Made by a program: the position numbers and the translations under genes. From Solibacillus sp. FSL R5-0449 (GTDB taxonomy: Bacteria > Bacillota > Bacilli > Bacillales_A > Planococcaceae): a DNA stretch of 64,000 nt. The notes beneath the pieces were generated by a model. That model saw only the letters and a program-made list of their open reading frames with translations. It was not told the origin of the DNA and did not search any database. Within the stretch, counting starts at the first letter, position 1; every line of letters starts with the position of its first letter. This document shows, one piece after another, positions 3,330-52,757 of this stretch. The stretch lies in assembly GCF_037975215.1 (NCBI RefSeq), contig NZ_CP150239.1, forward strand, positions 720,001-784,000, read 5' to 3'.

Positions 3330-3345
3330 ATGATTGACTTCCAAG

Positions 3346-3376
3346 CGGATTGCCTGAAATAGGCAATCCGTTTTTT
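3346..3376 (+). terminator. Terminator after hpf
   Basis: CGGATTGCCT and AGGCAATCCG form a perfect 10-bp stem with a 5-base loop, then TTTTTT. Confidence 0.95.
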
Positions 3377-3390
3377 GCTTTGTTGTAAAG

Positions 3391-3650
3391 TATCTAATTA
3401 AGGTTCTTGTAGTGTCTAATAAAAATATAAATTGGATATTATAAACTGAATTGACTATTATCCAGTACAAAGTGGCTATTAAGTATGGTCAAATGGCGAT
3501 AATCGTAAGTGAACTGGCTATTAAATACTTTGAGTTGGCTAAAATCCGTAAAAAATGGCCAATAAAATATCCATTCTCTCATACACGTCTTTGCATTCTC
3601 TCTCAAAGTGGCTTTAAGTGGCTAATATCTGAAAAAAGTGTCTAAAACAT
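3391..3650 (+). repeat. 21-base-period array A (TGGCTATTA core)
   Basis: Cores of the type TGGCTATTA or TGTCTAATA start at 3391, 3413, 3433, 3452, 3473, 3494, 3515, 3536, 3556, 3609, 3619 and 3639. From 3452 to 3536 the spacing is exactly 21 bases; elsewhere it is mostly 19 to 22. The 12 bases between cores are not conserved. The array fills the gap between the hpf terminator and secA. Because 21 is a multiple of three, an open frame runs through it, but there is no sign of real coding. Confidence 0.8.
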
Positions 3651-6495: not shown

Positions 6496-6650
6496 TTGAT
6501 TGGAGCGAAGGCGGCGACTCCTGGGGGAATAGCGTGACGCCTGAGACAAGGAACAAAAGCTAACAACGCCACGTCCTGTGGCAACGCTTTTGTGACCAAC
6601 ATCGTGTTGGCCTCACGCCCCCGGAAAGCGTCCGCCGCAGCGGAAATCAA
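6496..6650. repeat. Dispersed palindromic element with nested hairpins
   Basis: Outer arms are TTGATTGGAGCGAAGGCGGC and a matching right end with GTCCGCC and AAATCAA. This GC-rich outer part looks like the dispersed intergenic repeat common in Bacillales. Inside are two strong hairpins: ACAAAAGC...GCTTTTGT enclosing GCCACgtcctGTGGC, and CCAACATCGTGTTGG. The inner core CACGTCCTGTGGCAA (6570-6584) recurs exactly at 44237-44251. It lies just before prfB; the element is much richer in GC than its surroundings. Confidence 0.7.
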
Positions 6651-9258: not shown

Positions 9259-9287
9259 AGCCGCCCTATTCAGGTGGCTTTTTTTTA
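9259..9287 (+). terminator. Terminator after IDEAL-domain gene
   Basis: AGCCGCC and GGTGGCT pair (one G-T) around a short loop, then eight T residues. Confidence 0.85.
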
Positions 9288-9302: not shown

Positions 9303-9500
9303 TTCTGGTTATTTTCTAATAAGTTGTTGAAAGTTTCTAATAAAATTAAAATAGTTCTAATAAATTGGTTATTTTCTAATAAAAAGGATAATTCTTCTAA
9401 TAAGTGCACGAGATTTTCGAATAACCGTTCCCAATCTTCAAATAAGTCACCGAAATTTTCTAATATCCGTCACCAAAGTTCTAATAAATCCAGCCTACCT
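9303..9500 (+). repeat. 21-base-period array B (TTCTAATAA core)
   Basis: Cores TTCTAATAA or close variants start at 9314, 9335, 9355, 9374, 9395, 9416, 9437, 9458 and 9479, with a partial one at 9303. Six of eight intervals are exactly 21 bases; the other two are 20 and 19. The 12 bases between cores differ. The array lies between the terminator of the IDEAL-domain gene and the uvrB control region. An open frame of serine-asparagine-lysine repeats through it is a by-product of the period. Confidence 0.85.
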
Positions 9501-35893: not shown

Positions 35894-35902
35894 TAAAGAT
35901 TG

Positions 35903-35944
35903 AAGCGTGTTAAAAGTTGAAGTGGCTTTTTACACGCTTTTTTG
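35903..35944 (+). terminator. Terminator after yisL
   Basis: AAGCGTGT pairs with ACACGCTT in a long hairpin, followed by TTTTTG. Confidence 0.8.
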
Positions 35945-35960
35945 TATGGAGAAGGGTGGA

Positions 35961-36294
35961 TTCTACTTTTACGGGGAAACGTTCTACTTATGTAGTGTTT
36001 TGTTCTACTTTAGGGGAGAGACGTTCTACTTTATAGAGGAAAGGTTCTACCTTTCCGTTTCCTCTTTCCACATTTTATCCTGAAAGTTCTAATAGCTCCG
36101 GGTGTTCTACATTCAGATGTATTCGTTCTACATTAGGTCGTGAGTATTCTACTTTGCTGGCCCAACGTTCCACATTTCACCTATAAAGTTCTACATTCCC
36201 CGCGATTTGTTCTACCTATGAGGAGAATCGTTCCACATTATTTCAAGGAAGTTCCACTTTTTCGGCTCCACGTTTTACATACAACCCTCTATTC
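35961..36294 (+). repeat. 21-base-period array C (GTTCTACTTT core), the most regular
   Basis: The TTC of each core (TTCTAC, TTCCAC, or TTTTAC once) lies at 35961, 35982, 36003, 36024, 36045, 36066, 36087, 36105, 36126, 36147, 36168, 36189, 36210, 36231, 36252 and 36273. All intervals are exactly 21 except one of 18. The core is about 10 bases (GTTCTACTTT or GTTCTACATT); the unit at 36087 is GTTCTAATA, the core type of arrays B and D. The remaining 11 bases of each unit are unrelated. It lies between yisL and the amylase-like gene. Confidence 0.92.
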
Positions 36295-42313: not shown

Positions 42314-42346
42314 AAAGCTTGTACGTGAATGCGTACAAGCTTTTTT
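42314..42346 (+). terminator. Terminator after clpB
   Basis: AAAGCTTGTACG and CGTACAAGCTTT form a perfect stem, then T residues. Confidence 0.95.
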
Positions 42347-42356
42347 GCGTGGGATG

Positions 42357-42553
42357 TTCTAATAAAGCTGAATGATGTTCTAATAAAAATGAAAAAGTTC
42401 CAATAAAAGACGGAAGTTCTAATATAAATGCCCTTTATTCTAATAAGCAGTGCAACTGTTCAAATAAACGGGTCGATTTGTCTAAAAAGATATACAAACC
42501 TTCTAAAATAAGTTAAAAGTCTTCTATTAAAATTCGCGCACCTTCAAAATAGG
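42357..42553 (+). repeat. 21-base-period array D (GTTCTAATAA core)
   Basis: Core TTC positions are 42357, 42378, 42398, 42417, 42438, 42459, about 42480, 42501, 42522 and 42543. Seven of nine intervals are 21; the others are 20 and 19. The core is GTTCTAATAAA, with variants TTCAAATAA and TTCTAAAAT. It fills the gap between the clpB terminator and the terminator facing yjzD, between convergent genes. Confidence 0.88.
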
Positions 42554-44207: not shown

Positions 44208-44272
44208 GTGGGGGAAAGAACGAATACTAAAATCGTCACGTCCTGTGGCAATGAATTCGTGTCCTGCCCCCC
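44208..44272. repeat. Hairpin repeat element between fabH and fabF
   Basis: An outer GTGGGGG/CCCCCC pair and an inner ACGAAT/ATTCGT pair enclose CACGTCCTGTGGCAA (44237-44251), which is identical to 6570-6584 in the element before prfB. The two elements share the core and the nested design but not the arms. Confidence 0.6.
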
Positions 44273-45649: not shown

Positions 45650-47098
<1,449 letters not shown>

Positions 47099-52342: not shown

Positions 52343-52457
52343 GTGAAATAAATCACATAACAAACATACACCCCTTTGTTTGAACGTGAACATTTCTCCC
52401 ATCCCCTTTGTGAAAAAGAGGCGTCTTATTTCTCGAGAATAAGACGCCTCTTTTGTT
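52343..52457 (+). ncRNA. roxS: Small regulatory RNA RoxS/RsaE
   Basis: The segment from GTGAAATAAATCACATAAC through CCCCTTTGTTTGAA to TTTCTCCCATCCCCTTTGTG matches the conserved body of RsaE (Staphylococcus) and RoxS (Bacillus), with its C-rich loops that pair with ribosome sites of target mRNAs. It ends in a strong terminator (GAGGCGTCTTATT with AATAAGACGCCTC, then TTTT). RoxS/RsaE represses TCA-cycle and related mRNAs in response to NO and redox state. In B. subtilis it also lies near yjbH. The exact 5' end is estimated. Confidence 0.93.
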
Positions 52458-52496: not shown

Positions 52497-52570
52497 TTCT
52501 CTATTCCCTGGCAAATGTTCTACTTCCATCCCATTAACTTCTATTTTTCCGGTTTAATTGTCGAATAAAG
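52497..52570 (+). repeat. 21-base-period array E (short)
   Basis: Cores GTTCTCTAT, GTTCTACTT, CTTCTATTT and TTGTCGAATAA begin at 52497, 52518, 52539 and about 52560, each 21 bases apart. It lies downstream of RoxS, between convergent units (RoxS and spxH). The rest of the gap to 52757 has no gene I can support. Confidence 0.65.
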
Positions 52571-52757
52571 GGTATGTTATTTTAAACAGTCCTAAACCCC
52601 TTAAAACAGCTTTTAAAATTTCACTAGGATAAATGCCAGTGAGTGCCCGATTAAGGCCTTTACGACTGTATAGAGGAGCAAATATACCTATGTCTATCCT
52701 CACGACTATAAAACGATTCATAGCTCTTTTTCGGAACTTCAAATAACCCCGGAAATT

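Follow-up and report, generated by a model that had tools for sequence, protein, structure and literature searches.

Phased intergenic word arrays behind terminators in Solibacillus and other Planococcaceae

Intergenic gaps in the chromosome of Solibacillus sp. FSL R5-0449 hold arrays of short words that recur every 21 bases, with units of 19 or 20 bases at fixed places. Words and spacing are constrained, the arrays sit in intergenic DNA behind terminators, they follow a modular architecture, and from species to species the words turn over while the geometry is retained. Our best explanation, held with belief and doubt evenly balanced, is that these gaps carry a dispersed functional chromosomal element, a multi-site array for a DNA-bound protein or small protein family with its sites two turns apart. 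The arrays had been noticed in the window, by which we mean the whole stretch of 64,000 nucleotides analysed (bases 720001-784000 of a single contig), in an earlier note that knew of no named element of such form; a limited literature search covering few subscription journals likewise yielded neither a published name nor an earlier description, and a prior report is possible.

Arrays of the window and their modules

Each unit joins a word of 7-12 bases to a free spacer, and five arrays were considered in the window (Table 1), those at A-D being flanked by hpf, secA, uvrB and the DUF1516, alpha-amylase and AAA/Clp genes. The closest named relatives of the amylase gene beside array C belong to S. 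merdavium, S. faecavium and S. palustris, in keeping with the genus Solibacillus. When each array was set against 200 dinucleotide shuffles, the longest chains in A, B, C and D were at least 6, 9, 5 and 6, compared with at most 3 in the shuffles. Array E, taken alone in the host genome, does not rise above its shuffles, and only the other four of the five proposed arrays stand in their own right; since its orthologue in G005 is a clear, full array of six TTCTAC units and GGCGAATAA, array E is a decayed remnant of a TTCTAC array. None of the arrays has an Rfam match that would make it a known structured RNA, and the RsaE gene ends just before E.

Table 1. Features of the window, with positions counted from its first letter
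Feature	Position	Strand	Remarks
Intrinsic-terminator-like hairpin and T-run of hpf	3343-3376	+	Directly 5' of array A; read from sequence
Array A	3413-3565	+	TGGCTATTA-like words; gap hpf (S30AE) / secA
Bacillaceae-1 RNA	6544-6610	+	Rfam match
Intrinsic-terminator-like hairpin and T-run	9259-9287	+	Precedes array B; read from sequence
Array B	9314-9488	+	Nine TTCTAATAA/TTCTAATAT-type words; gap upstream of uvrB
Intrinsic-terminator-like hairpin and T-run	35899-35945	+	3' of DUF1516 gene, ahead of array C
G-rich lead of array C	35946-35960	+	Sequence feature
Array C	35961-36281	+	16 units; gap DUF1516 / alpha-amylase-family gene
Intrinsic-terminator-like hairpin and T-run	42318-42348	+	3' of Clp-like AAA gene, ahead of array D
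Array D	42357-42552	+	TTCTAATAA-type words; orthologues in G014, G005
Bacillaceae-1 RNA	44211-44265	+	Rfam match
T-box leader	46875-47091	-	Rfam match
RsaE/RoxS sRNA gene	52343-52451	+	Rfam match; its terminator stands before array E
Array E	52498-52580	+	Decayed TTCTAC array; 3' of RsaE/RoxS sRNA terminator

Array C had been described as 16 units with 14 of the 15 intervals exactly 21, and this is confirmed: its words, mostly TTCTACTTT, TTCTACATT or TTCCACATT, start at 35961, 35982, 36003, 36024, 36045, 36066, 36087, 36105, 36126 and so on to 36273, the single departure being an interval of 18 at unit 7 (36087), where the word is TTCTAATAG. The wider proposal of a period of 21 in all five gaps needs amending. 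The period is indeed found genome-wide, but units of 19-20 bases recur at fixed places and the mean spacing ranges from 20.46 to 21; array B runs 21,20,19,21,21,21,21,21, array D runs 21,20,19,21,21,21,21,21,21, and array A, with the intervals of the third word family (TGGCTATTA), runs 20,19,21,21,21,21,20. The words differ as well: C and E share the TTCTAC family, B and D belong to the TTCTAATAA family and A to that of TGGCTATTA. The words of A are, in order, TGTCTAATA, TGGATATTA, TGACTATTA, TGGCTATTA, TGGCGATAA, TGGCTATTA, TGGCTAAAA and TGGCCAATA, and its orthologue in G014 has intervals of 19,21,21,21,20,21; orthologous arrays of B are found in four congeners.

The words of the host genome fall into two main families and several minor families, at least five words in all (TTCTAATAW, TTCTACWTT, TGGCTATTA, TGACTAAWW and GTGAGGAWTA). 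Family 1 (TTCTAATAA/T), to which B and D belong, takes the form of a nine-word module present at 19 loci, which have in common the intervals (20 or 21),20,19,21,21,21,21,21 or close variants and differ in their spacers. At nine loci a second group, mostly of four words, stands 81 or 82 bases away (word to word), and these linkers, with a mean identity of 0.37 across the nine loci, keep their length while their sequence is not conserved. Family 2 (TTCTACTTT/TTCTACATT, including C and E) consists of blocks, typically of five 21-base units and one 19-base unit, and the blocks therefore repeat at about 124 bases; the word of the 19-base unit is GGCTAATAA, GGCGAATAA or TTCTAATAA, and in most family-2 arrays the last unit is again of the AATAA type. 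Such fixed higher-order modules went unmentioned in the earlier note, as did the terminator placement, the G-rich lead and C-rich tail, and the turnover of words in place described below. Among the minor words, TGACTAAWW is present at four loci and GTGAGGAWTA at one only, the array at G000:C1:1609746-1609815 (L171), which has this word to itself. Whole family-1 modules are duplicated in tandem, about 340 bases apart, at G000:C1:1078187-1078848 and 1155179-1155833 (L046, L049).

Distribution in the host genome and comparison of orthologues

The arrays are intergenic and occur genome-wide, as had been proposed. A strict triple-word pattern has 121 matches in the 3.58-Mb host contig, compared with none for a reversed-pattern control, and the autocorrelation of core positions is limited to 19, 20, 21 and sums of these. 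A word-blind test, which took 8-mers repeated with at most one mismatch at least four times in a row in 464 kb of host sequence, gave 28 loci at 21, one at 20, one at 40, three at 42 (the double period) and none at the 19 other periods tested; it is the contrast between periods that counts, and the 28 loci in 464 kb are no density because most stretches were picked for holding arrays. Not one of 35 chains lies inside an ORF of at least 120 aa, though such ORFs cover 83% of the sequence. Outside arrays the words are found singly at near expectation (TTCTACTTT is slightly high, with 5 and 10 seen against 1.8 and 3.9 expected, and reversed control words behave likewise), and because there is no clear enrichment the array, not the single word, would be the unit. 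Strict TTCTA arrays in the host are dense at 0.1-1.5 Mb (about 30 loci by hand count) and sparse at 1.5-2.6 Mb; the GC skew of this genome switches near 1.7 Mb. The counts inspected for orientation relative to replication disagree between the two arms and give no consistent orientation.

Given that 21 is a multiple of three, equal to seven codons, and that some arrays are crossed by short ORFs, the arrays could be thought remnants of genes for heptad-repeat proteins. Such an origin is next to impossible, because no reading frame survives the conserved units of 19 and 20 bases, and the lack of any chain within a long ORF speaks against it as well.

The proposal that words and spacing are kept while the spacers drift is borne out by the orthologues of gaps B and D. 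With the units laid out by the interval pattern of the host, the words stand in register in every species; at gap B (five species) word divergence is 0.047 and spacer divergence 0.211, at gap D (three species) the values are 0.065 and 0.255, and the third positions of uvrB diverge by 0.15-0.17. Words are thus 4-5 times slower than spacers between orthologues, with no change of length, and within the word positions 4 and 9 (counted from 1) are variable while most others hardly vary. On this evidence, drawn from two loci and few species, the spacers look free, and the words and lengths constrained. The observations that the earlier note had named as telling against its account (no 21-base peak, a coding location, conserved spacers) were largely looked for, and none emerged.

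The arrays might instead be selfish, satellite-like repeats that spread by tandem or block duplication and dispersal, their words looking conserved as the copies are young or homogenised. This could account for the block duplications, which are clear both in blocks of 82 and 124 bases and in the tandem copies at 1078 kb and 1155 kb, for near-identical units in G145 and G055, for rapid gain and loss at gap C and for patchy counts among species. It nevertheless appears unlikely in view of the four- to fivefold slower divergence of orthologous words than of adjacent spacers, free of indels, and of linkers that hold 81-82 bases with no sequence identity; homogenisation would have to be limited to 9 bases, and we know of no process so confined. 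Nor do the arrays behave as a plain minisatellite, in which a whole unit is repeated with no constraint inside, for words and spacers diverge unequally.

At gap B, five species have a TTCTAATAA array and G004 a decayed version of it; the array of G013 is built of CGCAAATAA instead, and those of G008 and G011 of GGATAGAA (TTCTATCC on the opposite strand). At gap C, G000 (the host), G005 and G014 carry an array, G007 has a short one, G010 retains a remnant, and G004, G009 and other genomes have nothing; in array-free cases such as G009 and G013 the terminator passes almost straight into promoter-side sequence. Arrays thus come and go in the stretch from terminator to promoter, and the word changes from one species to another. 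The element is dispensable, since several congeners (G012, G015 and G009) have no array within the 40-60 kb examined. In G001 and G002 (L091, L092) gap C is filled by unrelated sequence around CATCTTCCGTCTAGGCTAAAGCGCCAGCCCCTCGGCC, nearly the same in both, which has the look of a further dispersed repeat. SCGAATA was tried as an array word in array-poor congeners and rejected, its counts being close to control level with no chains.

Placement behind terminators and base composition

Arrays start shortly 3' of intrinsic terminators, which are present at 35 of 39 array-facing gene ends and at 71 of 108 others (Fisher p 0.0035); in part, this placement may reflect tolerance of insertion there. 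Over the first 40 bases beyond the T-run, the excess of G over C is 7.7 in array gaps (29 gene ends) against 1.7 in array-free ones (74). Along the arrays the GC skew goes from about +0.4 to about -0.3 or -0.4, that is, from a G-rich lead to a C-rich tail, and both ends are therefore G-rich on the strand leading in. The sequence from T-run to array is strikingly G-rich in G216 and G193 too, and a TTTATGCTCG array in G013 is flanked by GGGATGGGGGGCGATGGCTGGGG and a C-rich tail. Gaps with arrays are co-directional in 23 cases, convergent in 9 and divergent in 3, and array-free gaps in 128, 21 and 42, with the proviso that single assignments may be wrong because the gene calls are mechanical ORFs; the depletion from divergent gaps (3/35 against 42/191) is not significant alone (p 0.10). 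Words occur in both orientations relative to neighbouring genes.

Arrays that adjoin terminators, show no fold on either strand and have a G-rich entry and a C-rich exit on both strands could also act in RNA, where an unstructured, C-rich and G-poor transcript leaving an array on either side would recruit Rho, or some other RNA-binding protein, to terminate read-through or antisense transcription. Such a role is distinctly improbable: the words run in both directions with respect to the adjacent genes, the skew is compatible with DNA binding too, and Rho, to our knowledge, needs neither a 9-base word nor a 21-base spacing. RNA structure itself was rejected as a candidate, with fold z-scores near zero on both strands and 2 of 38 strand tests below -3, and the 5' flank of an array did not pair with its own 3' flank beyond chance (permutation p 0.16).

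Word diversity, geometry and possible readers

Within the genus the triple-word pattern is found in 14 of 16 genomes, host counted. The TTCTA pattern alone reaches 85 of 261 genomes of the family Planococcaceae and 13 of its 19 genera, counts of one or two per genome being untrustworthy because a few TTCTA matches may be coding, and it carries genus-specific extensions (TTCTATCCGTCACTTT, TTCTATGAGCGC, TTCTACCGAAAC, TTCTAGCGATTC, TTCTATCTATTC). Scanning at the level of the order brought up no genome beyond these 261. A word-blind search of 17 stretches from ten genomes turned up five arrays with a period of 21, compared with zero at five control periods, and three of the five use words unrelated to TTCTA (AACTGTCATGG, GCTCAAA, CGTTGTA). 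The AACTGTCATGG array of G216 has 27 units in a strict repeat of 19,21,21,21 and the TTCTATCC array of G045 has 31 units; like GCTCAAA in G244, these words of other genera keep 21 with recurring 19s, and occasional 19-20-base units give blocks of 82 or 124 bases. Word use differs from genus to genus, and from array to array within one genome, in the same geometry. In a class-level sample of 101 genomes, clear arrays occur in one other family only (G267), where TTCTATCGAGCAAATTTACAA arrays at 21, with 13 strict matches, could be the element itself or a convergent one outside Planococcaceae. BLAST found no plasmid or phage relatives of the arrays, and an exact-word scan of viral contigs gave five matches to TTCTAATA; three of these were inspected and are AT-rich or of low complexity, unlike the element. 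Two viral contigs (L192, L193) bear seemingly real TTCTATCC arrays right behind a terminator-like hairpin and are perhaps prophage or host flanks.

Species- and genus-specific words at many loci, with changes of word at a fixed place, recall the dialects of DNA uptake sequences (DUS) in Neisseriaceae (PMC3630211), and the arrays could be uptake or sorting signals whose lineage-specific words spread by biased DNA uptake. DUS are likewise short words in many copies that change between relatives, but they are dispersed singly (PMC3630211), whereas the present words are phased in tandem and not clearly enriched as singles outside arrays or in genes; as uptake signals have no need of 21-base phasing, we consider this very improbable.

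Among known systems the closest in layout are the iterons of theta-replicating plasmids, where Rep binds direct repeats some 17-22 bp long. Both have direct, non-palindromic repeats about two turns apart, a conserved core with variable bases and a word per lineage. Iterons, however, go with a rep gene and an origin, while the arrays described here lie behind terminators at dozens of loci in one chromosome, with housekeeping genes as the neighbours of A-D and neither a rep gene nor an origin beside the arrays examined. REP/BIME and other dispersed repeats, such as bcr of Bacillus cereus, are also intergenic, dispersed and often at the 3' ends of genes, but REP/BIME are palindromic and fold, whereas the arrays have no fold and place tandem words at fixed spacing with free sequence between. 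The centromere repeats of ParR and TubR are tandem direct repeats as well, read cooperatively by small DNA-wrapping proteins, yet they form one site per plasmid beside par genes; here the sites are many and chromosomal, with no par genes beside those examined. CRISPR arrays share the periodic repeat-spacer layout, but consist of near-identical repeats of about 21-50 bases and unique spacers of conserved length, and their exclusion in the earlier note is upheld: words of about 9 bases (9-12) with spacers of 10-12 (9-12 in all) that drift at or above the third-position rate do not fit. In operator arrays of Lrp/AsnC proteins the wrapped DNA carries sites in phase at intervals of about two turns, a likeness by analogy only, as Lrp sites are near-palindromic, unlike the words of the arrays.

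Some homogeneous arrays have a mean spacing of exactly 21; the mean is 20.5-20.8 in Solibacillus and 20.46 in the arrays of G066, G045 and G216 that are rich in 19s. Strictly 21-base arrays of near-identical units, such as those in G145 and G066, look as plain tandem duplication would leave them. The best phase period, 10.24-10.50 bases per turn, lies in the range of DNA. Among 10 arrays that include shorter units, 6 keep phase better with their actual succession of intervals than with permuted ones (p 0.000-0.037), a result that is suggestive only because whole-block duplication would give the same. It had been suggested that all cores face the same side of the helix; the words do track about two turns, but not exactly one face, given the recurrent 19-20-base units and a mean spacing of 20.46 to 21.

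In the multi-site array that we favour, words on double-stranded DNA would be bound by subunits that touch one another. We infer that these subunit contacts set both distance and phase, which would explain why spacing and helical phase matter and spacer sequence does not. The 19-base units would serve to restore phase, or would lie where one group of 4 or 6 subunits meets the next. It is possible, though doubtful, that the resulting nucleoprotein block serves as a boundary behind terminators against leftover or antisense transcription from either side. Placement, the use of both orientations and the symmetric base skew suggest such a role, which would fit convergent and co-directional gaps, words in both orientations and G-rich lead-in strands at both ends.

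The suggestion that one protein binds all the arrays is doubtful, because no fewer than five words coexist in a single genome, one of them at a single locus, and relatives use others. So many words per genome are awkward for a conserved specific regulator and point to several related binders or to an array reader tolerant of the word. In the latter case selection might act on self-similarity at two-turn spacing and not on the word, with recurrence every 20.5-21 bases being read across the family, an idea that we regard as quite unlikely. Such a reader could rely on direct DNA-DNA or RNA-DNA homology recognition, or be a fast-changing RNA-guided or modular binder, and word-tolerant reading would give the whole family a phased element with a boundary or organising role.

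If confirmed, the arrays would represent a large class of intergenic element in bacteria whose defining feature is geometry and not sequence, one that alignment-based searches for repeats, RNAs or proteins cannot see because the spacers and even the words turn over. They would then also offer a natural case of the replacement of a binding word at a fixed position. For the Planococcaceae, confirmation would mean a family-wide element with tens of loci per genome under purifying selection, and it would provide a handle on what follows Gram-positive terminators and on how transcription units stay apart.
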